Source of the DNA: Bacillus sp. CGMCC 1.16541
Lineage (GTDB): Bacteria > Bacillota > Bacilli > Bacillales > Bacillaceae_H
Assembly: GCF_003184905.1 (NCBI RefSeq)
Contig: NZ_KZ821206.1
Coordinates: 113,443 to 177,442 of the forward strand
Length of the DNA: 64,000 nucleotides
Direction of reading: 5' to 3'
Positions 1 through 12,189 of this stretch are shown in pieces (within the stretch, counting starts at the first letter, position 1; each line of letters starts with the position of its first letter). A model generated the notes under the pieces. That model saw only the letters and a program-made list of their open reading frames with translations. It had not been told where the DNA came from and did no database searches. The position numbers and the translations under genes were made by a program.

Positions 1-32
1 CCACGTTAACAATTAAATAAGGACGTGATTAA

Positions 33-164
33 ATGCAATTCTCTAAAGAAATAATAAAGGCTGTTTCAAAAGGTGAAAAGTTAGAACTAATTAAACAGCT
101 TAAACCTGACCAAGCTTTAAAGTTAGGTCTTTTAGTAAGGAAGTACAAACAAGAAAGCAAATAA
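33..164 (+). CDS. Small hypothetical protein (43 aa) of the mobile element
   Basis: The ATG is preceded by an AAGGA-type site at 19-23 with normal spacing, and the frame closes at TAA 162-164. The product is Lys/Leu-rich, soluble and probably helical, with no Cys, signal or membrane segment. A strong terminator follows at once, so this looks like the last gene of a transcript entering from the left. The family is not recognised. It is real on ribosome site, spacing and terminator, but functionally unknown. Confidence 0.6.
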   Translation: MQFSKEIIKAVSKGEKLELIKQLKPDQALKLGLLVRKYKQESK

Positions 165-182
165 TTTCCCTCTTAAATATAT

Positions 183-212
183 TCCCACTGGCTTTGCTGG
201 TGGGATTTTTTA
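183..212 (+). terminator. Rho-independent terminator after the 43-aa gene
   Basis: Arms 183-192 and 196-205 form a 10-bp stem with two G-T wobble pairs and a 3-nt loop, followed by a T run at 206-211. Plus-strand orientation. Confidence 0.85.
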
Positions 213-236
213 TTTGAATAAAAAGGAGATTTAAAA

Positions 237-587
237 ATGAGATCAGGTATTAAACAACTAGTCATTTCATCATGTGCAAACTTCGTAGACGGTAACTGCA
301 TATTGCTAGATAAACCCTGTCCGTTAATTAGTGGCGGTGAGTATAGAGGTAAAAAGATACCAGCTAGTGATTGTTCCTGTACTTACTTTGAAAATTCTGT
401 ACTACCAACAAATAAAGCATTAGAGGCTGTTTATTATGGCAAGGAAACATTATTAAACAAGGTATGTAAAGGCTGTGGAAAAGGTTTTAACTCAGTGTCT
501 AACAGGGCTGTTTATTGTTCTGATACTTGCAGACATTCAGCTAGGAAAAAGACATTTATAAAGGCTAATCAAAAACGGGCTAAATAA
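237..587 (+). CDS. Cysteine-rich VLP-type small protein with C-terminal zinc motif
   Basis: This 116-aa protein starts at ATG 237 behind AAAAGGAGA. The N-terminal half carries spaced cysteines (SSCANF, GNC, PCP, SDCSC) like the Cys-rich VLP domain found on Firmicutes plasmids and integrated elements. The C-terminal half has CKGCGK, then YCSDTC, then a basic tail, a plausible four-Cys zinc finger that could bind nucleic acid. The role in the element is unknown. Its stop codon overlaps the left arm of a long inverted repeat at 586-686. Family assignment is from the Cys pattern only. Confidence 0.7.
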   Translation: MRSGIKQLVISSCANFVDGNCILLDKPCPLISGGEYRGKKIPASDCSCTYFENSVLPTNKALEAVYYGKETLLNKVCKGCGKGFNSVSNRAVYCSDTCRHSARKKTFIKANQKRAK

Positions 588-686
588 CAACAGTTAGAAT
601 TAAATAAAGTCTTATATATCAAGGGGTTTAGCGGTCAAAAATCAAAGGGTAAGGGGTTAATACCTAGCCAGTTTCTAACTGTTGTT
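586..686. repeat. 14-bp perfect inverted repeat enclosing a 73-nt core
   Basis: Left arm 586-599 and right arm 673-686 are exact reverse complements (AACAACAGTTAGAA). The 73-nt centre contains TATCAAGGGGTTTAGCG at 617-633, which nearly matches a word inside another inverted-repeat unit at 9679-9794. No T run follows the right arm, so it is not an ordinary terminator. It could be a structured RNA, a leader for the next gene or a small DNA element. Confidence 0.7.
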
Positions 687-715
687 CTACTAAATCTAAT
701 ATAGGCGGTAAGAAT

Positions 716-1108
716 ATGAATAAAGGCATGAATAGAAAACAGTTTGAGGCTAAATTAAATGATAATTATAGCGGTGCTGTGACACCTTTAACAAATTATA
801 TAAATGAACGTGCTGTAATGGTATTCCAATGTAAAGAGTGCCAATTAAAGTTCTTTGGTAAGCCTAGTCATATGGTAGGAAAGGAACACCAAAGACATTT
901 ATGTCACCACCCATACGGTGATAGAAATGGAACGAGAGTACAGCATATTATTGGAAAACATAAGGTTAAAAAGAAACAGCAACCAGTAAACTTGGAACAG
1001 TTAAATGAAATGATATGGAATGACTATTCATATAAGCAAATAGCGGAAAAATTAACAGTTAACCCTAAGCTTATTAAAGATTACTTTAAATCTGAGGGGT
1101 TAATTTAA
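716..1108 (+). CDS. Hypothetical zinc-ribbon/HTH DNA-binding protein
   Basis: This 130-aa basic protein starts at ATG 716 behind AGGCGG; a second in-frame ATG lies at 728. Residues 38-66 contain a zinc-ligand pattern, CKEC followed by CHH. The last 35 residues (from about 96) read like a helix-turn-helix: YSYKQIAEKLTVNPKLIKDY. A DNA-binding regulator of the element is the natural reading, but no named family is recognised. It follows the 586-686 inverted repeat by 29 nt, so that structure may lie in its leader. Confidence 0.65.
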   Translation: MNKGMNRKQFEAKLNDNYSGAVTPLTNYINERAVMVFQCKECQLKFFGKPSHMVGKEHQRHLCHHPYGDRNGTRVQHIIGKHKVKKKQQPVNLEQLNEMIWNDYSYKQIAEKLTVNPKLIKDYFKSEGLI

Positions 1109-1127
1109 CACAATTCACTTAGCCACT

Positions 1128-1170
1128 AACTTTTAAAAGAAAAACCCAGGTGCAATAATACACTTGGGTT
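1128..1170 (-). terminator. Terminator of the 1184-1618 gene
   Basis: Arms 1143-1152 and 1161-1170 pair with one wobble. Read on the minus strand, the hairpin is followed by TTTTTCTTTT. It lies between two convergent genes and serves the minus-strand one. Confidence 0.75.
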
Positions 1171-1183
1171 GTGTAGTGGTTGG

Positions 1184-1618
1184 TTATAGACAAGCCTGAT
1201 TTTGTTCCCTAAACCATTTACTAAATTCACTTCTAGTCATTTGGGTATCTTCTGTCTCTACCCCGTCTGCATCCCAGTCAAGCACTTCCATAAGAAGAAT
1301 CTTATCCTCGTGCGTTGTACCTTTTTTTGCATAGTTAACTAAATAAAGTGTGGCATCAAGATCATCAGCAACTTGACATAGACTAATAAACTTTCTTTTA
1401 TTTTTGTGCCAATATCTTCTCGGATGACTAGTGTGAGGATTAACAGTTTGACCCTCTTCACATAACAGATACTCAAAGATAACATACTCATCATCCGAGT
1501 TCTTTTGAATCCTGTCAAAGTTGATAGCAGCTGTCACATCGCCAGCTAACATTTCTTTTGCGAATTCAAATCCACTTGAATCATCAATACCTAACTTTTT
1601 ACTTACTGGCATATTCAT
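1184..1618 (-). CDS. Hypothetical acidic protein downstream of the Type III R-M genes
   Basis: The frame gives 144 aa. GGGGG lies directly before ATG 1618 and six bases before ATG 1612, so 1612 may be the true start (142 aa). The protein is acidic, cytoplasmic and has no recognised domain. The central part alternates short hydrophobic strands with conserved-looking acids (VIFEYLLCEEG, ISLCQVADDL, YLVNYAKKG, ILLMEVLDWD), loosely reminiscent of restriction-endonuclease-like folds; this is a weak impression. It is codirectional with mod and res, but separated from res by a terminator and followed by its own. It could be an accessory defence protein or an unrelated cargo gene. Confidence 0.6.
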   Translation of the reverse strand: MNMPVSKKLGIDDSSGFEFAKEMLAGDVTAAINFDRIQKNSDDEYVIFEYLLCEEGQTVNPHTSHPRRYWHKNKRKFISLCQVADDLDATLYLVNYAKKGTTHEDKILLMEVLDWDADGVETEDTQMTRSEFSKWFREQNQACL

Positions 1619-1671
1619 CCCCCTTTGTCTATATTTTCCACACTATTCCATAATAACACAACTAGAGTCAT

Positions 1672-1704
1672 AGAAAACAAAAAGCCCCCAAAAAAATGGA
1701 GGCT
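1672..1704 (-). terminator. Terminator of the mod-res operon
   Basis: Arms 1683-1690 and 1697-1704 pair with one mismatch. On the minus strand the stem is followed by a T-rich run (complement of 1674-1683), just after the res stop codon. Confidence 0.75.
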
Positions 1705-1710
1705 ATTGAC

Positions 1711-4239
1711 CTATTCAAGCAGACTTAATAAACTCTTTTTCCATTCTTCTTGTGACACTAGTTGGAAAACAAATTCCTTATCCTCAAATTCTAATCCTAA
1801 GGCATTCCAGGAAGTTTTTTTGCCCAATTCGTTACATAAGTTGAAAATATTTTCTTTATAGGTTGTATCATCGTTCCCCATTAAGTGCTTACCTTTAGTT
1901 TCCATGACATAAACAGTTGAAAAATCATTGTCTTCCTTAGGCTTAATGTCAGAGAAAATAAAGTCAGGATAAATCTTTTGTTTCCTCCAGCCCTGAATAG
2001 AATAATCAACACGTTCAATATTCCTGTACCACCACAATAACTTTTCATGAGTATCAAGACAGATAGCGAATGCTTTTTCTAACGGATTGTAATCACTTTC
2101 CACAACAGGTTCGACTAAGCTTTTCTCTATCGGATCATAATTAGACCGCAGAAGTCTTTTTTCATTTTTTCCAACCTTATATTCTAGGTTTGGTATTGAA
2201 GCCTTTCTTTCTTCTAAGATGAATTGAATTCTGTTGCTATCAATCAGCTTATAAAAGATTATTTGGGCTAGACGGTTCTTTTCCTGTTCCAGTAGTTTTT
2301 TTAGTTCCTCAATCACATAAGACAAGTTCGCATTAACTATATGCCTTTCATATGAGGAAGTTAATAATTCAACTACCTTGTTACAAATATCGTAGGCAAT
2401 CCACATATTAGGTACTATATCCGTAATCTGCCTAGTCATTAACGAAATATCAATGTCGGTTTCAATGTTTTCTTCCTCATGGTAATCGTATCTATTTATC
2501 AGATCATTTCCATCAGCGATTCCGACACGAAAAACTTCATCTTTAGACCGTTCCGTAGCGGATAATGTAAGGTCTTTGATACTACCGAGGTTTATTTCAT
2601 TCCAATCAATTCGGCTTAAAATATCTATTTCATAACTAATAGGACGCCAACCTTGATTTTCTTGTTCATACAAGAATCTTGGAAGAAATATTTTCCCTTT
2701 TAAGTGTTTATATTTATCCCTAATTTTAACCTTTTGCTTAACCTCATCCGAGTTATCATCTTCATTTTCAGATAACCCTGTTACACGATTTGTTAAGTCT
2801 CCCATACCTTCTAACTTTAGACCGCCACGAATACTCTCCAAGATTTTGCTTGATTCTTGTTGGTAACAGTACACATAGCTTTCATCTAATTCCTGTATTC
2901 CAGTTTTCTTAGCATATGGCTGCCTTAAAATTCGACCTACTAATTGGGTAAGGCCAGTTTCTGAACTTGATTTAGATAAGATTGTCAGTGTATATGCAAA
3001 TGGACAATCCCACCCCTCTTGTAGTGCTTGTTTAGTGATAATAAATCGGATTGTAGAATCCCCAGACAATAAGTCAATACCTTCAATATCATCTTTATCA
3101 CTTGATTTAATGGCAATTTCATCCGGTGAAATATTACATTGTTTTATTAAAAACTCCTTAACATCTTCGGAATGAATGTGATTACCGTCTTGTTGATTCT
3201 TTCCTGTCCGTTCTACTTGAATCAAGGAAATAGGTCTTATATATTTTCCTGTTGCCTTTCGATAGTCATTAGCCAGGTTTTCCAGTTGCTTTCTCTTTTC
3301 TACCGTAGCAAGAACAGTATCCTTCCAATCACCGCTGGATTTGTTGATAATGTTTAAATCAAGCTTAATCATTTCTTCACGATCTAAATCCAGCCCACTA
3401 ACGTTAACCAAGATATTACTTTCTTTTTTAGGGGTAGCGGATAACTCAACAATCACTCTTGGATTAAAGTCTAATATCGTTTTTTGGGCACTAGCTGTAT
3501 ATGCTTTGTGTCCTTCATCAATTATAACGATTGGCTTTAATACTCTGAGAACGTTCCCTAAAGAAGTTTTTACTTGCCTAGTAGGGAATAAAGAGTGGAT
3601 TTCCTCAAAAACATCAACATTAGGATATGCATCGATAAGTTGCTGATGTTCAATCATGTTGTCTTCTGGTGGGAAAAATTCTACATACCCCCCAGAATCC
3701 TGGAACATTTTTAATGTTTCTTTAGTTTTACGGTTTGATGATTGTAACATCAGTACCATTACAACCAGATTTTCATTAACATCTTGTGGGGTGAACCGAT
3801 CATTTTTTTCAATGATTAAGGTTCTTCCTCCACTTGAAATATCTAGCTTTTGTCTATATGGATGATTTCTATCCTTTAGTGCTTCAAGCGTTTGATTATA
3901 AATCTGACTTGAAGGTACTATCCATAGCACAAAACCAGTTTGCTTGCGTAGGTAGTGAGTATTTATTAAATCTATGGAATAGGTTGCAAGCAATGTTTTT
4001 CCTCCACCAGTTGGAACCTTGAGGCAGATATTTGGAACATCTTCACCTAAACCATTTTTCTTATTGTTATATTTATTTATCTCAAGCTTGTCCCAAGCTT
4101 CGCTAGTAAAGTTAATTTTACTAGCGATTTTTGGCTTCACTTCTTTTAGTTCTTGAAGATCATCATATTCTGCTTTGAGTATGTTTAAATAATTTTCTAC
4201 CGTTTTTATTGCATTTAATTGATAATCCTTTAACTCCAT
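1711..4239 (-). CDS. res: Type III restriction enzyme, Res (helicase/endonuclease) subunit
   Basis: Res subunit of a Type III restriction-modification system: an SF2 ATP-dependent translocase with a C-terminal nuclease. Numbered from the TTG at 4248 (845 aa), Walker A PTGGGKT is at 79-85, the DEGH box at 244-247, then SATPKK and a motif VI region ending QLVGRILRQP; the PD...ETK nuclease signature is at 761-762 and 783-785. That TTG overlaps the mod stop, but AAGGG sits nine bases before ATG 4239, which I take as the start (842 aa). Length and motifs are intact, so it should be active with Mod. A terminator follows. Confidence 0.93.
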   Translation of the reverse strand: MELKDYQLNAIKTVENYLNILKAEYDDLQELKEVKPKIASKINFTSEAWDKLEINKYNNKKNGLGEDVPNICLKVPTGGGKTLLATYSIDLINTHYLRKQTGFVLWIVPSSQIYNQTLEALKDRNHPYRQKLDISSGGRTLIIEKNDRFTPQDVNENLVVMVLMLQSSNRKTKETLKMFQDSGGYVEFFPPEDNMIEHQQLIDAYPNVDVFEEIHSLFPTRQVKTSLGNVLRVLKPIVIIDEGHKAYTASAQKTILDFNPRVIVELSATPKKESNILVNVSGLDLDREEMIKLDLNIINKSSGDWKDTVLATVEKRKQLENLANDYRKATGKYIRPISLIQVERTGKNQQDGNHIHSEDVKEFLIKQCNISPDEIAIKSSDKDDIEGIDLLSGDSTIRFIITKQALQEGWDCPFAYTLTILSKSSSETGLTQLVGRILRQPYAKKTGIQELDESYVYCYQQESSKILESIRGGLKLEGMGDLTNRVTGLSENEDDNSDEVKQKVKIRDKYKHLKGKIFLPRFLYEQENQGWRPISYEIDILSRIDWNEINLGSIKDLTLSATERSKDEVFRVGIADGNDLINRYDYHEEENIETDIDISLMTRQITDIVPNMWIAYDICNKVVELLTSSYERHIVNANLSYVIEELKKLLEQEKNRLAQIIFYKLIDSNRIQFILEERKASIPNLEYKVGKNEKRLLRSNYDPIEKSLVEPVVESDYNPLEKAFAICLDTHEKLLWWYRNIERVDYSIQGWRKQKIYPDFIFSDIKPKEDNDFSTVYVMETKGKHLMGNDDTTYKENIFNLCNELGKKTSWNALGLEFEDKEFVFQLVSQEEWKKSLLSLLE

Positions 4240-4244
4240 AGCGA

Positions 4245-5894
4245 TCAACCCTTAATACTGTAAATTTCATAAGGTAGTTTGGCAAATCTGATATTATATT
4301 TGTCTAAATACTCCTCATCAAGGAATTTCATTGGTGCAAAAACAATTCGACTCTTGTTCGGCTTATAAGAAACGATTTTTTCTGCTTTATCTAAACTAAG
4401 GGAAGTGGTTTTTAGATAATCTAAATCAGGCTTATAGAACAAGAACAAGTCATGTTTGTCCGTAGAACCTATATAATGGTTTTCTTCATCTACAAGTTCT
4501 GGCTTGAATTCTTCTCCAGTTGCAATATAGAACAGGTATCTTGCAAGGCTTTCAAATGATGGCAAGCTTTCCCCACTTAATATCTTGTCGAACTCAATAG
4601 CCTCACCAAGTTCAAAATATGAGAAGCTTCCGCCTAGACCTTCCCTTAGTTCCTTACTTTTTGCTTTTGGAACCCCTTTAATAACCCGTCTCATTCTTTC
4701 AGCTGTTAATTCATTAGCATACTCTTCCATTTCAACGAGGATGAACTTATGATTTGTTCCTTCTTCCCTGTTGTACTCTAGAACAGCATGTCCTGTTGTT
4801 CCTGACCCAGCAAAGGAATCGAGTATAATAGCTTCATCCTTCATTACAGCAAATTTAATTAACCGTTTTATTAGATCAGTAGATTTCGGTGTATCAAATA
4901 CCTTTTTACCGAAAATCGTTTTTAATTGGTTTTGACCATTTGGCTTTAAGTCATACCACATGTTACTCAATAACTTTTTATCTGTTGGCGGTATATAGTG
5001 TTCAGGTTTACCGTTTACAGATAACCTTAATAAATCTATTTCATCACCAGTTTCTTCAACATATTTCAAATACCATGAATCAATGTTCTCCGGGGTCAGT
5101 TCAATACCGTTCTCTTCAAATTCTTTAACGAGGTTTTCGTAATTTTCCACTGCTTCGATACTTCTCGTTTCGCCCCAACGCCACTGACCTGATTCTGGCT
5201 TGATTCCAAACAATTCATACCTCATTGTTGGCCGGTCAGTACCTCTCCAGTGATTATTCCATCCACCATCCTGAACATCTTCTAATTCAGCATATACTTT
5301 GTTAAATCTGCGTTCTGGATTTTTGGTATAAACTAAAACAGTTTCATAACCACTTGATAATGAATCAATAGTTTCAAATTGGGCTTGTACGTTTTTTACC
5401 CCTCTTCTGATACTAATTGAATCACGATAATTCTCTTCTCCAAACATTTCATTCATTAAGCTTTTTAAATGATGTTCTTCGTTATAATCAATACTGATGA
5501 AGATTACACCATCTTCATGAAGTAAATCCTTCAACATCTTTAAACGAGGCATCATCATACACAGCCACTTATCGTGTCGACAAAGGTCATCTTTATCCAC
5601 GACTTTCCCTAGCCAATCCTGAATCATAGGTGAATTAACATTATCGTTGTACACCCAATGTTCATTTCCAGTATTATATGGTGGGTCTATGTAAATACAA
5701 TCGACTTTCCCAGCGTATGTAGGCAGCAATGCTTTTAATGCTTTTAAGTTATCGCCTTGAATAATTAAATTATCGTTGTTTAAAACAACATTTTCGGTAA
5801 TACTTAACTCTTTATTCGGAATCAGATCATGATAATTTACTGTTATATGATGATTTTTAACTTGACTTTTACCTTTAAATTGTAAAATTGGCAA
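4245..5894 (-). CDS. mod: Type III DNA methyltransferase, Mod subunit (adenine-specific)
   Basis: Methylates adenine in the recognition site and provides sequence specificity for the Mod-Res complex. The catalytic DPPYNTG is at residues 70-76 and the S-adenosylmethionine-binding FAGSGTT at 361-367. This catalytic-before-cofactor order is that of beta-class N6-adenine methyltransferases, as expected for Type III Mod. The stretch between them (about 160-330) should hold the target-recognition region, so the target site cannot be read from sequence. The start is TTG 5894 behind GGAGGGG. Its stop overlaps the alternative res start, so the two genes are translationally linked. At 549 aa it is on the short side for the family. 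Confidence 0.93.
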   Translation of the reverse strand: MPILQFKGKSQVKNHHITVNYHDLIPNKELSITENVVLNNDNLIIQGDNLKALKALLPTYAGKVDCIYIDPPYNTGNEHWVYNDNVNSPMIQDWLGKVVDKDDLCRHDKWLCMMMPRLKMLKDLLHEDGVIFISIDYNEEHHLKSLMNEMFGEENYRDSISIRRGVKNVQAQFETIDSLSSGYETVLVYTKNPERRFNKVYAELEDVQDGGWNNHWRGTDRPTMRYELFGIKPESGQWRWGETRSIEAVENYENLVKEFEENGIELTPENIDSWYLKYVEETGDEIDLLRLSVNGKPEHYIPPTDKKLLSNMWYDLKPNGQNQLKTIFGKKVFDTPKSTDLIKRLIKFAVMKDEAIILDSFAGSGTTGHAVLEYNREEGTNHKFILVEMEEYANELTAERMRRVIKGVPKAKSKELREGLGGSFSYFELGEAIEFDKILSGESLPSFESLARYLFYIATGEEFKPELVDEENHYIGSTDKHDLFLFYKPDLDYLKTTSLSLDKAEKIVSYKPNKSRIVFAPMKFLDEEYLDKYNIRFAKLPYEIYSIKG

Positions 5895-5970
5895 TTTGGT
5901 TCCCCTCCGATTGAAAAAAAGTACCTTATATTATAATAACATTTTAGTCCGATATTTGGGGCAACTAAAT

Positions 5971-5997
5971 AAAAAAAGCAAGACACTAAGCCTTGCT
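5971..5997 (-). terminator. Terminator upstream of mod
   Basis: AGCAAG/CTTGCT stem (5977-5982 with 5992-5997). Read on the minus strand it is followed by seven T. It ends the transcript of the small genes at 6077-8223 before mod begins. Confidence 0.7.
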
Positions 5998-6076
5998 GTG
6001 AAAGGATTTGTTTTGTCACTGGCAATGTATCTATATCAAATAAATTGTAACTTTCCTTAATAAACTGCTTTTCGTT

Positions 6077-6394
6077 TTAGTTTGAATAAAAGTACGATGA
6101 TTTCCTATGACTTTTCCTACTAGGCTTAGTTCTTTTCATATAGCCGGTTCTAATTATCCTGTGAAGTTCATCAGACGGCTTTCCGCTTATAACAGAAGAA
6201 ACATATTGATGATCTACTGAATAACCCTCATCAGTCATTACCTTTACAACCTTCGCCAGACTATTGGAACAGGCATAATTTTTAATTATTTGCTTTTCAA
6301 CGGTATCAGCTTTATATGATTCCACTAAAGTTATGTATCTTTGAAGTCGTTCAACTTCTTCCTTTACTTTTTTAACTGTGATTAAAGTTTTCAA
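6077..6394 (-). CDS. Hypothetical small basic DNA-binding-like protein
   Basis: The true start is probably TTG 6394: AGGAGGG lies at the right distance, whereas an upstream in-frame ATG at 6430 would place that site inside the gene. The product is then 105 aa. The N-terminus is a likely coiled coil (KKVKEEVERLQRYITLVESY). The middle reads like a helix-turn-helix (SLAKVVKVMTDEGYSVDHQ, then VSSVISGKP), and the tail is very basic. A phage-type regulator is possible; no family is recognised. It is the last of four small minus-strand genes before a terminator. Confidence 0.62.
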   Translation of the reverse strand: MKTLITVKKVKEEVERLQRYITLVESYKADTVEKQIIKNYACSNSLAKVVKVMTDEGYSVDHQYVSSVISGKPSDELHRIIRTGYMKRTKPSRKSHRKSSYFYSN

Positions 6395-6467
6395 AATAAC
6401 CACCCTCCTATTTAAGAAGGATTCGACCATTAAAGGATATTTCCTTTTGGCAATTCAGTGAACAAAT

Positions 6468-6932
6468 TCACCTACCCATTAGATAATTAGTTTTCATTTG
6501 TTCTATTTGTTGTTCTACTAGTTCCCAACGATCATCCAATATATCAATATCCTTTATTTCCAGTTTACCGAAAGCCTCAATGTACGCTTTATCTCGGGTT
6601 TCTTTGTATAATAAATCTAACTTTTCTAGTTCATGATTGACAATAGTGGTTATCCACCAGTCTTCAAATCCTTGACTATTTAACTCCACATATGTATTTT
6701 TACAATCTATTCTTAGTTCATCCCTTTTTATTACCCAATCTCTTGGCAAATCATTATTCCCACTAAGAGGGCTTATAGCCTTATTTAACCTCTGCAAATT
6801 CCTTGTAGCATGGGATAATTCCCTAATTTTCCGTTTGAGGGCTTCGTCATGCTTTAATCTTTCAAAACTTCTGTGCATTTTATCTTCTGTTACCTTCATG
6901 ACCTGGTGTTCAAATACTTCCGCCATATTCAC
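6468..6932 (-). CDS. Hypothetical helical protein (154 aa)
   Basis: GTG 6932 is the start, with AAGGAGG eight bases upstream. The protein is charged, without Cys or membrane segments, and is predicted mostly helical with coiled-coil-like stretches (residues 20-55 and 105-150). Trp-rich GFEDWWITT sits at its centre. I do not recognise the family. It lies in a row of minus-strand genes with strong ribosome sites, 73 nt before the next gene. Structural or regulatory roles cannot be told apart. Confidence 0.6.
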   Translation of the reverse strand: MNMAEVFEHQVMKVTEDKMHRSFERLKHDEALKRKIRELSHATRNLQRLNKAISPLSGNNDLPRDWVIKRDELRIDCKNTYVELNSQGFEDWWITTIVNHELEKLDLLYKETRDKAYIEAFGKLEIKDIDILDDRWELVEQQIEQMKTNYLMGR

Positions 6933-7038
6933 TATTTCTTCCTCCTTAAGCCCAGTAAAAAGTTTTCAAAAAATACCGCAAAAATTTTTAGAGGAATATT
7001 GATTTTCAGGAATAACAAAATCCTTAACCACCCCTCAC

Positions 7039-7239
7039 CTATGATTTATTCTTGTCAATCATTATATCCAACCGATCATTGAGTGCCTTAAATTCTGACT
7101 TTGTTTCAAAAGATGTACTTCTAAAAGTCTCTCTTAAGTCGCCTATAGTTGTTTCTATTTTCTCCAGCATTTCAATAATGGAATTTAGTAATTCATAAGT
7201 TTGTTTAGTTTGATTAGTTTGGTCTGTTTGCTTAGTCAT
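7039..7239 (-). CDS. Small coiled-coil protein with QT-rich start (66 aa)
   Basis: The best start is ATG 7239 behind GAGGTG; the longer frame to 7323 has no ribosome site. The N-terminus is a low-complexity Thr/Gln run (TKQTDQTNQTKQT), encoded by a direct repeat of about 10 nt. It is followed by an amphipathic helix (LLNSIIEMLEKIETTIGDL) and a second heptad-like stretch. It probably oligomerises. No domain is recognised. Confidence 0.55.
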   Translation of the reverse strand: MTKQTDQTNQTKQTYELLNSIIEMLEKIETTIGDLRETFRSTSFETKSEFKALNDRLDIMIDKNKS

Positions 7240-7947
7240 AAAAAAACACCTCACTGTATTTATAAAGCGATTATACAACGCTTGATTTTTTGGGTAAACG
7301 GAATATAGAAAAGCTAATAACAAAGGACTTCTAATTACAAACCAATTTTTACCACAAAAGATTCTGAACCATTATGTATATGTTCCAGACCCCAGACCGA
7401 CCATTTAGAGATACCCGCCCCACCCTTACTACCCTTCCTGTGATTTTACCTTTTCTGCTATTGATCGCTGTTAAGTCGTTAGTGCTACATTGGTGTTGTC
7501 AATCCTTTTCTTTGTCTTTCTCTATTCTCATTCTTTCCTTTGTTGTTCTTTCTGTTCTGTGCTGTATTCACTGCTGTTCAGTTCCTTCCTGTTTTCCTTC
7601 CCTGTCTTGTACTGTCCTGTGCTGTCTCTTGTGTCTTCTACCCTGTCACAGTGGACTGGTGCTATGCTGTGGGGTACTGTAAGTAGTGGGTACTATACTA
7701 GGGAATTATTTTAGAGGGTATTTTAGAGGCTAGAATTTAACTGAATACTACCCCATATATCCTAATTTTCATCCCCATCTATACCCTTTATTTTCTCCTA
7801 GAGTTTTATATTTTCTTTAGTACCTCTTTTGGCTTCACTTTTGGCTACAAACTTTTGATAGTTACTTTTGATTGGCGGTAAACCCTAGAAAAATCAGCAC
7901 TAAAAAACGTCAATCATATGTCTTGAGTTTTGATAGGTTTTGGGTAA
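7240..7947. other. 708-bp gene-free stretch with a pyrimidine-rich, CTGT-repeating core
   Basis: No convincing gene lies here: plus-strand frames at 7374-7714 are low-complexity translations without ribosome sites. From about 7495 to 7646 the plus strand is strongly C/T-rich, and CTGT occurs twelve times between 7552 and 7680. The minus-strand transcript would be purine-rich with repeated ACAG. Right of 7680 the sequence becomes ordinary AT-rich DNA. It may be a long leader for the 7039-7239 gene or a cis site for the element. Confidence 0.55.
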
Positions 7948-8223
7948 TTACTCTTGCAGAATTTGAATGCCATTTTTAATCTTATTATCCATTCTAAGAA
8001 TTTCATGTTGCTGTTCATGAACAAGATTTTTTAATCGTTTATTCTCTAATTGCAATTGATCTATCTTATCTAAATTTTCCCATGTGAATCTAATACACAG
8101 TCTTATAAGATCAGCATTTCTAAATTTACCTATTGTTTCTTTCGTAAGTTTTTTCATCAGTTCATTAAACTTCTTTTCATCTTCCGCTTCCAGATTGCAA
8201 CTGATACTGTATTTTTCTATCAT
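7948..8223 (-). CDS. Hypothetical regulator-like coiled-coil protein (91 aa)
   Basis: The start is taken as ATG 8223, eight bases after AGGAGG; an in-frame GTG at 8232 overlaps that site. The first 25 residues alternate like a short strand, then come helices (DEKKFNELMKKLTKE, then RNADLIRLCIRFTW), a layout that recalls ribbon-helix-helix repressors. The C-terminus (55-91) is a leucine-rich coiled coil. It is divergent from the resolvase across a promoter region with repeats, so it could regulate that region. The family is not confirmed. Confidence 0.6.
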   Translation of the reverse strand: MIEKYSISCNLEAEDEKKFNELMKKLTKETIGKFRNADLIRLCIRFTWENLDKIDQLQLENKRLKNLVHEQQHEILRMDNKIKNGIQILQE

Positions 8224-8539
8224 GAAAGCCACCTCCTACCCTTCCTTTATTTGTACCAAATCCGTTCATATTTGTAAATATTTTTATTTACATACAATAT
8301 AACATATGATAAAATTAAATATTTTACCTTAATTTAAGTTAACTTACTCTAACTTAAAGAATTATAATTCTAAAAAGGTACACCTTTATAGACAGCGGAA
8401 AATATAATAAAAACACTGTTTATTTATATCTAATATAAACCTTTATAGACTTCTATAAAATCATTGACCTTTATAGACAACTATTGTATATTTTGCTTAT
8501 TAAAAACAGTACAAAACAATAGTAAAGGGGATATTCGCT
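8224..8539. promoter_or_regulatory. Divergent promoter region with palindrome and CCTTTATAGAC repeats
   Basis: A 316-bp AT-rich gap between divergent genes. It holds a TGTAAAT/ATTTACA dyad near 8272-8290, a perfect 12-bp palindrome TAAGTTAACTTA at 8335-8346, and three exact copies of CCTTTATAGAC at 8383-8393, 8440-8450 and 8468-8478. The last copy sits between a -35 (TTGACC, 8465-8470) and a -10 (TATATT, 8487-8492) with a 16-bp spacer, which would drive the resolvase gene. The repeats are therefore likely operator or recombinase sites. Confidence 0.65.
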
Positions 8540-9148
8540 GTGACAGGAATTTCTTTTGGTTATACTCGTGTTAGTACGTTAGAACAGAACTTAGATAGAC
8601 AGTTTGAGGCACTAAAACCTTATGTAACTGATGAAAAATATATATACAGTGATAAGGCTAGTGGCAAGGATATGGAACGTGATGGGTTTCAGAATATGTT
8701 AAAGGCAATGAGGGCTGGAGATACTCTTTACATAAAATCTGTTGACCGTCTTGGAAGAAATAAAACTTTAATAAAAAAGTACCTGGAGTATTTTAAGAAT
8801 GAGGGTATTAGAGTAAAGATTATTGATCTGCCTACTACTATGCAAGATGTTCCAGAGGGGCAAGAATGGGTTTTAGACATGATCAACAACATTATCATTG
8901 AGGTTTACACTACAATAGCACAACAAGAGAGAGAAACAATAAAACAGCGACAAGCTGAAGGAATAGCGGTTGCTAAAGCTAAAGGTAAGCATGTAGGCAG
9001 ACCACCTAAGGAACTACCTAAGGGTTGGAAAAGTCTATATAATGATTGGAAGTCAGGTAAGATAAAGAAAGCCGATTTTATGAATGAAATTGGAATGAAA
9101 CCAGCCACCTTCTATAAAAAGCTTAAAGAATACGAGGCTACACTCTAA
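8540..9148 (+). CDS. Serine resolvase/invertase family recombinase
   Basis: A 202-aa small serine recombinase. It starts at GTG 8540 behind AAAGGGG. The nucleophile motif YTRVSTLEQNLDRQ lies near residues 8-21 with Ser at about 12; SVDRLGRN follows at about 73-80, then the long E helix and a C-terminal HTH region (GKHVGRPP, then KADFMNEIGMKPATFYKKL). Such enzymes resolve cointegrates or invert DNA, usually at sites near their own gene, here perhaps the upstream repeats or the dyads downstream. It ends in its own terminator. Confidence 0.88.
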   Translation: MTGISFGYTRVSTLEQNLDRQFEALKPYVTDEKYIYSDKASGKDMERDGFQNMLKAMRAGDTLYIKSVDRLGRNKTLIKKYLEYFKNEGIRVKIIDLPTTMQDVPEGQEWVLDMINNIIIEVYTTIAQQERETIKQRQAEGIAVAKAKGKHVGRPPKELPKGWKSLYNDWKSGKIKKADFMNEIGMKPATFYKKLKEYEATL

Positions 9149-9166
9149 AAGGGTTAGCCTTTTTTG
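9135..9166 (+). terminator. Terminator overlapping the end of the resolvase gene
   Basis: AGGCTA (9135-9140) pairs with TAGCCT (9155-9160), followed by TTTTTG. The left arm is within the last codons of the gene. Confidence 0.65.
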
Positions 9167-9488
9167 ATTTCTTTTTTAAAGAATCATCTAAAATACTGAT
9201 AATAAAACTATGATTGTGCAACAGATTTTTAATGTCCAAATGTTAGTTGTTACGACATATCGTAAAAAAGCTAGCAACTATATGTATTATGCATTAGAAA
9301 GTTTTTGAAAGTGAAGTGCATAAAGGGCAAACAAGCATTCTGAATGCACAAGTTTGACCAAATTAGTCTACCCCTATATTTGAATATATTTTTTCCATTT
9401 TTAACAATCTGCTTAAACTTATTTAAATGACGGTGTATTATAAAATATCATGATTCGATAATTTTTTATTTTTCCTGCTTTTTAATAA

Positions 9489-9661
9489 TCACAAGATGGT
9501 GGTACTAACAAATCCAAAAAAGCTTAGTTTTATTAGGATTTATATAGTATTTAGTCACAATTCTAACCTTGTGATTAACAAACTAAGAAAACCCAGTAAT
9601 ATAAAGGGTTTAGTTATTTTTATAATCACAATTAAAGTCACAAGACGGTGTGATTAACAAA
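9489..9661. repeat. Three direct repeats ending in TTAACAAA or CTAACAAA
   Basis: Copies at 9489-9512, 9555-9582 and 9638-9661 share TCACAA at the left and RTTAACAAA-like ends (ACTAACAAA in the first). Copies one and three also share AAGAYGGTG. The gaps are 42 and 55 nt, with no spacer-like uniformity. Confidence 0.65.
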
Positions 9662-9678
9662 ATTTACACCAAAACTTA

Positions 9679-9794
9679 TACAGGTTCAAGATAAATATTC
9701 AGACAATTTAAAAAGATGGTGAAAACCCAGTCGTATCAAGGGTTTCAGCGTTTTGTAAAAAATTCCTAAAAAAAATTTCTGAATTGAACCTGTA
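9679..9794. repeat. 11-bp inverted repeat enclosing an AAACCC/GGGTTT hairpin
   Basis: TACAGGTTCAA at 9679-9689 is the exact reverse complement of 9784-9794. The enclosed 94 nt contain AAAACCCAGT (9722-9731) and TATCAAGGGTTTCAGCG (9734-9750), which together form a small hairpin. The same internal word occurs in the 586-686 unit. Confidence 0.65.
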
Positions 9795-10140
9795 ATCACT
9801 GCTATTTTATGCACTATATACTGTAGAAAACTGATAATAAAGATTCTATAACTATAAAATATAATTTATATAATTGTTTAAGAAATTGGCGAAAGCCCGT
9901 AAGGCTTAAGGATAAGTATGTTTATTTAGCAATAAACCAATAAATAATATAACCTCACCCCGTTCGGTGTTCGGGCTTAAGCCCTCACTACTATTAGTAT
10001 CAAAAACAATTCTATAATTATTATTCTATAGATAGTGACACTATATAGTTAAATATAGTATTAAGTTTTATATATAGTTATATAGTGTTTTTAGTCTCCT
10101 TTCTTTATTTTAACAGCATGGCAGCTGATCTCTTCCCATT

Positions 10141-10180
10141 CCCTTCACTGGTCACTAGCTGATCGGTGGAGGGTTTTTTT
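10141..10180 (+). terminator. Plus-strand terminator with no upstream gene
   Basis: Arms 10141-10148 and 10166-10173 pair with one wobble and are followed by seven T (10174-10180). The nearest plus-strand gene ends a kilobase earlier with its own terminator, so this one implies a non-coding plus-strand transcript or protection of the convergent recombinase gene. Confidence 0.75.
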
Positions 10181-10219
10181 CATATATAAAATAAAAAGGA
10201 ATATTCATAACGATTATCC

Positions 10220-11698
10220 CTACTTGTAAACTATCCTCATTGTCGGAGATTCTGCACCTTTTTTATATGACCACAAAATACCGCTAATTAACCCATGTAA
10301 CAGACGATTCACCTGTTCATTAGACAATCCCTCCCCGTCTAGAAATTCCCACTTTCCAACAAGGTTGTCTATAGCTTTTATCTGTTCTTTTAAGGTGTCA
10401 ATTTTAGCTGTTTTATCTTCCTTCTCCAGTGCCAATATTTCTTCTTCTATTTGCTTTATTTCTTCCTGTCTTTCAGCTTTCCTTTCTCTATAAGTAACAA
10501 TATCATAATCCCCTTCTTCAAAAGCATAGTTAATCCTTTGCAAAGCCCTCTTAGCCTTGTTTAAACGGCTTATAAGCTTTTCTTTTTTATACTCAGTGTT
10601 ATTAACTTCTTTACCCTCTTCCAACGTTTCTAGGGTCTGTAGAAGCGTTTCCCTATGCTTTAAAACCTCTTCTTTAATTACCTCCAATGCAGAGTTGTAG
10701 TAAAAACTTCTGTTACCACACTGGCAGTGCTTAATATAATACTTATCAATATGCGGGTGATAGTTGTTACCTTGCACCTTACCGCAGTTTGCACAATAGA
10801 TAAGACTACTTGTTGGATAAATCTTATTCTTACTTCTTGGGGCTTTAAAAGAGTACTCATTTACAATCTTATTAGCAGTTTCCCAAGTCTTCTCGTCAAT
10901 GATTGCTGGGTGTGCATTATGGACAATAATCCATTCTTCTTTGGGTCGAATGTTGCTTGAATATTTTCCAATGGTTCGGTTACTTATTATAGTGCCTTTA
11001 TACGCCTCATTGTTAATTATTCTTAAAATGCTGTTATAGTGAAACAAGTTGCCTTCTCGTGTTTTTAGTCCCATAGTATTTAAACTTCTGACTAAATCAG
11101 GTACTGTAGTGCCTTTAATAATCTCCGAATAGATAAATTTAATATCCTCAGCACGATCATTAGGAACAAGCTTTTTTGTTTTAGGGTCTTTGGAATAACC
11201 TAACGGTGCAATACCATTTGTCCAATGTCCTTGCTTCTGTGCGTATTCTTTTCCCCTTCTCATACGCTTTAGAATTTGCTTGTATTCACCACTCGCAATA
11301 AGGCTGGTTATTCCTAATAGTAAGCTGTCATCATCTCTTGATAAATCATACAGTCTGTATGGTGTAACGATATATGTCTGGGTTTCAAAAAGAATTCTTT
11401 TAATTATACTAGCGTCATATTCGTTTCTTGACAGTCTGTCTATGTCCATTACAACAACAGCATCAAAATGATCTTGCTGAATTCTGTCTAGTAGCTTAAC
11501 CATTTGTTCACGATTTATAATCGTACTACTGGACGCAACTTCTTCAAATAACTCATATGACCATTTGTTTTGACTACATAATTCAATTAGTGTTTGTCTG
11601 TGATTAGCCAAAACTTGTTCAATTCCTAAATTTTCTTCGTCACGACTTAGACGCAAATATACCGCTACATGTTTTATGTTCTCGTTGTTAAATAGCAA
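10220..11698 (-). CDS. Large serine recombinase (integrase) of the comGA-inserted element
   Basis: Catalyses site-specific integration and, with a directionality factor, excision. The probable start is TTG 11698 (492 aa), eight bases after AGGAAGG; the longer frame to 11707 starts inside that site. The resolvase domain carries YLRLSRD with catalytic Ser at about 18 and MDIDRLSRN near 90; a recombinase domain follows, then a zinc ribbon (YCANCGK and HCQCGN), a long coiled coil (about 375-450) and a tail. All expected parts are present. It lies 45 nt after the comGA fragment in the same direction, the usual place beside an attachment site. Confidence 0.95.
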   Translation of the reverse strand: MLFNNENIKHVAVYLRLSRDEENLGIEQVLANHRQTLIELCSQNKWSYELFEEVASSSTIINREQMVKLLDRIQQDHFDAVVVMDIDRLSRNEYDASIIKRILFETQTYIVTPYRLYDLSRDDDSLLLGITSLIASGEYKQILKRMRRGKEYAQKQGHWTNGIAPLGYSKDPKTKKLVPNDRAEDIKFIYSEIIKGTTVPDLVRSLNTMGLKTREGNLFHYNSILRIINNEAYKGTIISNRTIGKYSSNIRPKEEWIIVHNAHPAIIDEKTWETANKIVNEYSFKAPRSKNKIYPTSSLIYCANCGKVQGNNYHPHIDKYYIKHCQCGNRSFYYNSALEVIKEEVLKHRETLLQTLETLEEGKEVNNTEYKKEKLISRLNKAKRALQRINYAFEEGDYDIVTYRERKAERQEEIKQIEEEILALEKEDKTAKIDTLKEQIKAIDNLVGKWEFLDGEGLSNEQVNRLLHGLISGILWSYKKGAESPTMRIVYK

Positions 11699-11720
11699 TA
11701 TAATCACCTTCCTGACGGTA

Positions 11721-11749
11721 ATTATATTACGTTATCCCTAAGGACTCAA
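11721..11749 (-). promoter_or_regulatory. Predicted sigma-A promoter of the integrase gene at the junction
   Basis: On the minus strand TTGAGT (11744-11749), a 17-bp spacer and a perfect TATAAT (11721-11726) precede the TTG start by about 23 nt. The -35 overlaps the stop codon of the comGA fusion, so it lies on element DNA at the attachment junction and may be altered on excision. Confidence 0.6.
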
Positions 11750-11762
11750 CAAGTAGGACCTG
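11738..11762. other. Attachment-site junction between comGA and the element
   Basis: Codons for Phe-Thr-Gly-Pro-Thr of comGA (ending near 11752) run into element sequence coding Cys and a stop. The family motif continues Gly-Ser-Gly-Lys-Thr, so the crossover is within or just before the Thr codon. The core cannot be fixed without the left junction. Confidence 0.75.
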
Positions 11763-12189
11763 TGAAAATAATCATTCCATGAGAGTGTTTGAGCAAGGAG
11801 ATTAATTTTTGGGTATCTTTTTTAAAAAGTGCAAGGTGAGACATTGAAGTGATTTTATCTTGAGGGAGAACGCGAATGACAAGACTTTCATCGTAAGAGG
11901 TAGGCAGAGTGGATAAACGCAAATTCACTTCATTTCCTTCAAGTCCGATAGTCAGTGCACCGTTTTGAGGCTTACGTCGCTCACCGATATCCATTCCACC
12001 TAAAAACTTGAAGTGAGAAATGAGTCGTTCACACACGGAGCGAGGAATGATCTCTTTCTGCACAAGCTCTTGGTCCATTCTCAATTGAATGAGAGCATCT
12101 TGCTTTCTCGGGACAATGTGAATATCTGATACATGATACTTGTTTGCATATTTAACTAGTTGATCAGCAAACGTTTCAATTTCTTTCAA
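11746..12189 (-). pseudogene. comGA: comGA, 5' part only, interrupted at the Walker A motif
   Basis: ComGA is the cytoplasmic traffic ATPase that drives the competence pseudopilus for DNA uptake. These 147 residues match the ComGA N-terminus (SDIHIVPR, HFKFLGGMDIGERRKPQNG, LRLSTLPT, HSHGMIIFTGPT). The frame then ends two codons into the mobile element, before the Gly-Ser-Gly-Lys-Thr of the P-loop. The nucleotide-binding core and the rest of comG must lie left of the window, cut off from this promoter. The start ATG 12189 has AAGGAGGG upstream. Upstream DNA holds one ComK-like AT box (AAAA, five bases, ATTT) and a palindrome AACTACGTAGTT at 12214-12225. Confidence 0.95.

Follow-up and report, generated by a model that had tools for sequence, protein, structure and literature searches.

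The competence ATPase gene comGA of Bacillus sp. CGMCC 1.16541 is interrupted by a 13.0-kb island, apparently of non-phage nature, which was very probably put there by its own large serine recombinase (LSR) at an attB site within the gene, where it would block DNA uptake and to which it brings restriction genes as cargo. The island was analyzed in a window of 64,000 nucleotides (C2:113443-177442) from the 3.97-Mb draft genome of the host and in the adjoining part of the same contig. The features in the window are listed in Table 1.

Table 1. Features of the island and of the interrupted comGA gene, in window coordinates.
Feature	Position	Strand	Basis or remark
Element part inside the window	1-11752		remaining 1,270 bp at the left, C2:112173-113442
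Cys_rich_VLP-type ORF, 116 aa	237-587	+	Pfam
130-aa ORF	716-1108	+	common to two relatives, 40-54%
Type III restriction-modification Res subunit, 845 aa	1711-4248	-	PADLOC REase_III 3.6e-186, Pfam
Type III restriction-modification Mod methyltransferase, 549 aa	4245-5894	-	PADLOC MTase_III 4.6e-138, Pfam
94-aa ORF	7948-8232	-	common to two relatives, 35-44%
Small serine recombinase, invertase/resolvase type, 202 aa	8540-9148	+	relatives in three other elements
Large serine recombinase, 495 aa	10220-11707	-	PF00239, PF07508, phrog_95 integrase
Promoter-like TTGAGT-17-TATAAT, in attP right arm ahead of the LSR	11721-11749	-	TATAAT conservation
attP right arm, 22 nt, near-palindromic with left arm outside the window	11731-11752	-	17/22 identical
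ComGA-like ORF, 147 aa, ending ...IIFTGPTC-stop	11746-12189	-	runs past the core to a stop at 11746 in element DNA
comGA 5' part, to Gly-Pro-Thr of Walker A, AC core included	11753-12189	-	ORF, NCBIfam and junction
AC crossover dinucleotide, right end of the element	11753-11754	-	junction reading

The initial annotation of the window had described a frame resembling ComGA up to Gly-Pro-Thr of the P-loop, continuing into element DNA and a stop codon, with a complete large serine recombinase 45 nt further on. Both observations hold: the 5' frame corresponds to positions 2-137 of the 267 in the NCBIfam ComGA model, under whose full-length cut-off it stays because it is half a protein, and 45 nt separate the AC core from the LSR start codon. 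The 3' part, expected to the left, was indeed found on the same contig, at C2:111593-112189 beyond the left att arm of the element. Its frame covers model positions 130-266 and is open for 207 codons after the core. Behind it lie open frames of 347, 99, 171, 111, 140 and 136 aa which, named from size and order, are like comGB, comGC, comGD, comGE, comGF and comGG. The 3' half can also be read from an ATG in the left arm of the element as a 219-aa chimera (L009:549-1208, minus strand), in which TGSGKT is kept and the first Gly-Pro of the P-loop is missing.

Alignment of the two junctions, as had been suggested, defined the core. The break lies inside the Thr codon of GPT/GSGK and both comGA halves share the dinucleotide AC, with GGTCCTAC on one side and AC-AGGGTCAGG on the other; the junction windows have no shared word longer than an unrelated 5-mer. 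From core to core the insert measures 13,022 bp. When the flanks are joined at AC an uninterrupted frame of 353 codons (353 aa) containing GPTGSGKTTTLYT results, and the identity of the rejoined ComGA to the intact protein is 89% for the congener G005 and 73-76% for seven other congeners. An assembly break is rejected as the origin of the split, the element and both comGA halves being located within one 372-kb contig. An intact second ComGA, which would have spoken against the initial reading, is rejected as well: none was found in the host genome, where the only other T2SSE matches over the cut-off (2) are PilB and PilT. These two adjoin PilC- and PilD-like (prepilin peptidase) frames in a separate type IV pilus operon (L010, G000:C2:306000-313000); PilB- and PilT-like matches also occur in G005 and in none of the other eight genomes of the genus.

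In the LSR a resolvase catalytic domain (PF00239, 2.3e-21) is followed by a Recombinase domain (PF07508, 8.4e-20), and the protein matches phrog_95 at 5e-89. The zinc-ribbon PF13408, a usual LSR domain, was not reported for it at E<=0.1 and is present in the five LSRs of the other elements. Its attP is a 46-nt near-palindrome, the similarity of whose arms was reached by 0 of 100,000 shuffles. The attB is a 34-nt stretch coding for the P-loop, with the pattern GGNCC N-AC-N GG and weakly matching arms (9/16); it is intact in eight congeners, with 23-30 of the 34 nt as in the own attB. A 2-bp crossover combined with a symmetric attP unlike attB is the arrangement by which LSR sites are recognized. 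The proposal of the initial annotation that comGA serves the element as attB and is cut at a codon of its Walker A motif is well supported by the AC core, the restored frame and the attP arms, and it points to integration by the LSR. In the four relatives with both junctions read, the attP arms match at 13 (Terribacillus halophilus), 13 (Bacillus tianshenii), 17 (G361) and 13 (G195) of 22 positions, values reached by 38, 34, 0 and 24 of 20,000 shuffles, respectively. The arm symmetry of the own attP together with the recurrence of the insertion in other genera led us to reject a chance split. The promoter-like site in the attP arm is of the housekeeping type and its TATAAT is invariant across six aligned elements including the own one; its weight rests on this conservation, since one consensus match was found versus 1.3 expected in shuffles.

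The left 1,270 bp of the element contain an XRE-type regulator, a conserved 40-aa ORF and a terminator-like stem of 14 pairs, the latter two preceding the left att arm. The ORF (L009:1220-1342, minus strand), which adjoins the arm, encodes a basic protein with the C-terminal end TLG-x-x-A and no Pfam match. It is present in five of six elements examined (the own element and the left ends of four relatives) and absent in G195; a role as candidate recombination directionality factor would be a guess. A prophage is rejected, as PHROGs (8 ORFs) and Pfam (10 ORFs) returned no capsid, tail, terminase or lysis family; the PHROGs run comprised 10 ORFs, 8 of the own element and 2 of L056, with a few small ORFs outside the scans. 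Besides the recombinases and the restriction genes the island has small ORFs without an assigned function, for which PHROGs gave no useful match. Pfam searches of 10 ORFs, including the four longest, gave no relaxase, coupling protein or type IV secretion gene of an integrative conjugative element. Assignment to the SCC cassettes is rejected on the scores for CcrB (65.8 bits, cut-off 900), CcrC (51.9, cut-off 900) and CcrA (38.6, cut-off 700) and on the target, which is comGA and not rlmH.

Relatives of the LSR were searched in genome_contigs (2 loci), 397 genomes of the order, 398 genomes of the class, viral contigs (1 locus), phages and plasmids. At 1e-50, 21 of the 397 order genomes had a match, mostly at 31-36% identity, and no ComGA was detected by tblastn in the ca. 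1.5-kb flanks of these 31-36% matches. The class-wide search at E<=1e-90 returned the own copy only, and tblastn at E<=1e-30 gave 18 phage and 2 plasmid records, all below 60% identity. The resulting subfamily consists of eight copies: the own one and those of T. halophilus, B. tianshenii, G361, G195, G117, an IMG/VR record and G005, the copies in G117 and G005 being partial and the G254 copy, which by its coordinates is the B. tianshenii genome, counted once. Full-length pairs are 54-87% identical. Insertions at the same codon in relatives, which the initial annotation had proposed to look for, were found in other genera: six of the eight copies are inserted at exactly this codon of comGA and are spread over at least four genera (g1, g14, g31, g70), with Terribacillus maybe a fifth. 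After the core the 3' part of comGA is open for 203 codons in T. halophilus, 210 in G361, 213 in G195 and 209 in G379, and reaches a stop after 113 codons in B. tianshenii.

The two copies located outside comGA are those of the IMG/VR record and of G005. The IMG/VR copy is the closest relative (87% identity), and no ComGA match was found in the 56 kb of its record; a transposase-like ORF, IS3-like by eye, lies just beyond the left end of this element (L056:1-853 and 11500-11800). In G005, decayed LSR fragments at L060:11535-14767 lie away from the whole comGA, together with a small recombinase whose similarity to its T. halophilus counterpart is 85-87%. In G117 (L059 and G117:C6:252619-253416) one comGA is intact, and a different contig carries the 5' part of a comGA with a broken LSR at the same codon as in the own element; either this genome has two comG loci or one of them was acquired.

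The elements share a backbone with the LSR at one end and an XRE-type regulator at the other (own, T. halophilus, B. tianshenii and IMG/VR). Several small ORFs are common to several elements and not to all, and G361 and G195 have little in common with the others beyond the LSR. PADLOC was run on 20 proteins, mostly from the larger ORFs, of the own element and its relatives other than G117, whose contig ends. Restriction or other defence genes were found in five of the six elements scanned. The cargo comprises a type II restriction enzyme, a C5 methyltransferase and Vsr in B. tianshenii, a type II enzyme with an Eco57I-like methyltransferase in the IMG/VR record, and an MrcB-HNH protein beside a HATPase protein in G361. 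G195 carries an HNH protein like type IV enzymes, a pPIWI-associated nuclease, an AbiC-like protein and a PDC-S54 match. In T. halophilus no clear defence gene was found, the single PADLOC match scoring 7.9e-4.

The ComGA model was run on the 397 order genomes; 376 had a match over the cut-off, and all 21 others were inspected. In at least 10 of the 397 genomes comGA is split on one contig, a lower bound since splits scoring over the cut-off may be missed, with 10-50 kb between the halves. The breaks lie at motifs which we take to be Walker A (G000, the own genome, and G254, G361, G195 and G379), the histidine box (G342, G121, G332 and, scoring over the cut-off, G006) and Walker B (G029). The inserts at the histidine box and Walker B are larger, 39-49 kb in the five that were measured; these sites and an N-terminal site with a tyrosine-integrase neighbour are on L021/L022 (G006), L064-L069, L070/L071, L072/L073 and L076/L077. 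In G390 (Walker B) and G337 (before MDIGERR) the halves are on separate contigs, each beside a tyrosine integrase. The match ends at a contig end in G179 and G238; G058, G144 and G358 look like frameshifts or deletions; G091, G156, G273 and G293 have a single full-length match under the cut-off. In G394 the ComGA model found no ComGA, beside PilB- and PilT-like matches.

Different integrases adjoin these sites. The histidine-box sites are next to LSRs that are 44-60% identical to each other, and the Walker B and N-terminal sites are next to tyrosine integrases, the one in G029 being in two frames, so that integrases from outside the subfamily occupy three further comGA motifs. The LSR of G379 is only 21% identical to the own one over 351 aa, yet it is found at the same AC break in the comGA of another species; its attP arms match at 15 of 22 positions. 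The break sites seen in comGA fit the suggestion of the initial annotation that the most conserved coding stretch of the gene is targeted. As a control, spoIIIAA gave one match each in 381 of the 397 order genomes (8 of them under the cut-off) and none in 16, and no genome had it in two pieces. One control gene is a thin yardstick, and since few candidates per genome were scored in the ComGA and spoIIIAA searches a small second piece could escape.

ComGA is required for transformation in B. subtilis, and the insertion should therefore abolish DNA uptake. The requirement for comG is also stated in PMC7029219. Anatomically, the insertion leaves the host no working ComGA ATPase and cuts comGB-GG off from their promoter. 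The state of competence in the host is less simple. ComK (PF06338) gave no match in the own genome or in the congener G005, but all eight remaining genomes of the ten in the genus have it, and the own genome retains an open ComEC frame of 792 aa. With ComK missing, repair of comGA alone may not give competence, and the data do not support, in the form given, the statement of the initial annotation that the host cannot be transformed until the element is excised. Competence control may have disappeared from the own lineage independently of the insertion, either earlier or later.

From these data the following mechanism can be proposed. The LSR would integrate the island at GGNCC N-AC-N GG and thereby interrupt the Walker A motif within its Thr codon. 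The promoter-like site in the attP arm would drive the LSR, whose expression should then not need the host comG promoter. The broken ComGA would stop DNA uptake, as expected from the established function of ComG, and in this way also curing of the element by transformation, and the restriction-modification cargo would guard against incoming double-stranded DNA. If a directionality factor assisted excision, comGA would be rebuilt scarlessly, as predicted from the frame observed on rejoining. Against this reading stand the two of eight LSR copies that are not in comGA, the lack of transfer genes among the ORFs scanned, the missing PF13408 match of the LSR and T. halophilus, which lacks a clear defence gene. 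The benefit of blocking transformation may not apply in the present host now because it lacks ComK. A tentative extension, about which we remain rather doubtful, is that the island family is specialized on the comGA Walker A codon and combines a broken uptake motor as a barrier to single-stranded DNA with swappable restriction or defence cargo as a barrier to double-stranded DNA. Excision would return competence, and unrelated recombinases would have converged on the same dinucleotide because the host cannot change its P-loop to escape.

A different view of the same distribution is that comGA is just a convenient conserved site, on which LSRs settle because host range is gained, and that the loss of transformation is a side effect. 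The breaks at several comGA motifs, the reach across genera and the lack of ComK in the host are in line with this, as is the finding of a large survey that LSRs also use a single conserved site in the gene for a prolyl isomerase, which is not a competence gene (PMC10083194). The same survey reports strong enrichment of competence genes among LSR targets. Furthermore, spoIIIAA is nearly as widespread and was in two pieces in 0 of 381 genomes, as far as one control gene can tell, and the P-loop of the own PilB is uninterrupted although 25 of its 34 nt are as in the own attB. We consider that a convenient site is possible but not the likely explanation.

An element excised on cue, as gin in gerE and skin in sigK, with comGA broken during growth and rebuilt at competence, appears improbable. 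Restoration would be scarless, the 3' part of comGA is open for 203-213 codons in five of six elements at this site (own, T. halophilus, G361, G195 and G379), the own comGB-GG frames are open, and the conserved 40-aa ORF beside the left att arm could, as a guess, be the directionality factor; gin provides a precedent for a non-phage element carrying restriction genes (PMC5595907). However, the own genome lacks ComK, the LSR promoter-like site is of the housekeeping type, and the B. tianshenii 3' part has its early stop. That the island is an old dead remnant, no longer mobile, is very improbable, for in spite of the decayed copies in G117 and G005 no frame is interrupted in the own LSR, the restriction genes or either half of comGA, and the att arms look intact.

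The preferred reading, an island integrated by its own LSR that breaks comGA, bears on a wider question, since mobile elements that break competence genes are a main line of evidence that transformation cures parasites. The present elements form a compact set across genera at one codon with att sites mapped to the base pair; in the same gene a distant recombinase shares the break dinucleotide, and other recombinases occupy additional motifs. This amounts to a natural experiment on why a P-loop makes a good attachment site. A 34-bp attB, a 46-bp attP and a 495-aa recombinase are available as a testable pair, and the att pair may serve for DNA integration at a known conserved site in Bacillales.

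Among known systems, the staphylococcal SCC elements have a Ccr-type serine recombinase, no transfer genes, restriction cargo and a fixed site in rlmH. They resemble the own element in the serine recombinase, the lack of recognized transfer genes, the restriction cargo and the fixed chromosomal site, and differ in the target gene and in the low CcrB score reported above. The own element and its relatives split a competence gene site-specifically in several hosts, which places them with the elements that target such genes. Among open-licence papers, as far as their text was accessible, none was found to describe an LSR element with restriction cargo at the Walker A codon of comGA, and the supplements of PMC10083194 may list one. 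The same gene is interrupted by SpST71A, a 44.3-kb prophage described in 2020 in Staphylococcus pseudintermedius, which likewise breaks the comG operon (PMC7029219). There the break comes after 509 bp of a 988-bp gene, whereas the own element is a restriction-carrying island of 13 kb that breaks the gene at Walker A and occurs in a different group of hosts; the main text of that paper speaks of an 'integrase' and never of a 'recombinase'. A prophage within comGC is known from Macrococcus.

The gin element in gerE of Bacillus cereus ATCC10987 is similar in being a non-phage island with serine recombinase and restriction-modification genes that splits a developmental gene and is excised without a scar (PMC5595907); in the own element the split gene and the scarless frame are read from the sequence. 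In contrast to the own element, gin measures 28.6 kb, has three serine recombinases and shows demonstrated sporulation-timed excision from gerE. The own element has one LSR and one small recombinase, a competence target and a predicted excision, whereas the recombinases of gin are GirA/B/C. According to a 2016 review (PMC4774983), insertions in comK, comFA, comYC and comM are at sites conserved across species, and different integrases converge on one competence gene; these genes differ from the own target, comGA appearing in that paper only in the reference list. In Acinetobacter, elements in comM also combine an interrupted competence gene with defence cargo, CBASS and Zorya in this case (2024, PMC11472951), and differ from the own element in the gene, in the elements themselves and in the Gram-negative host.
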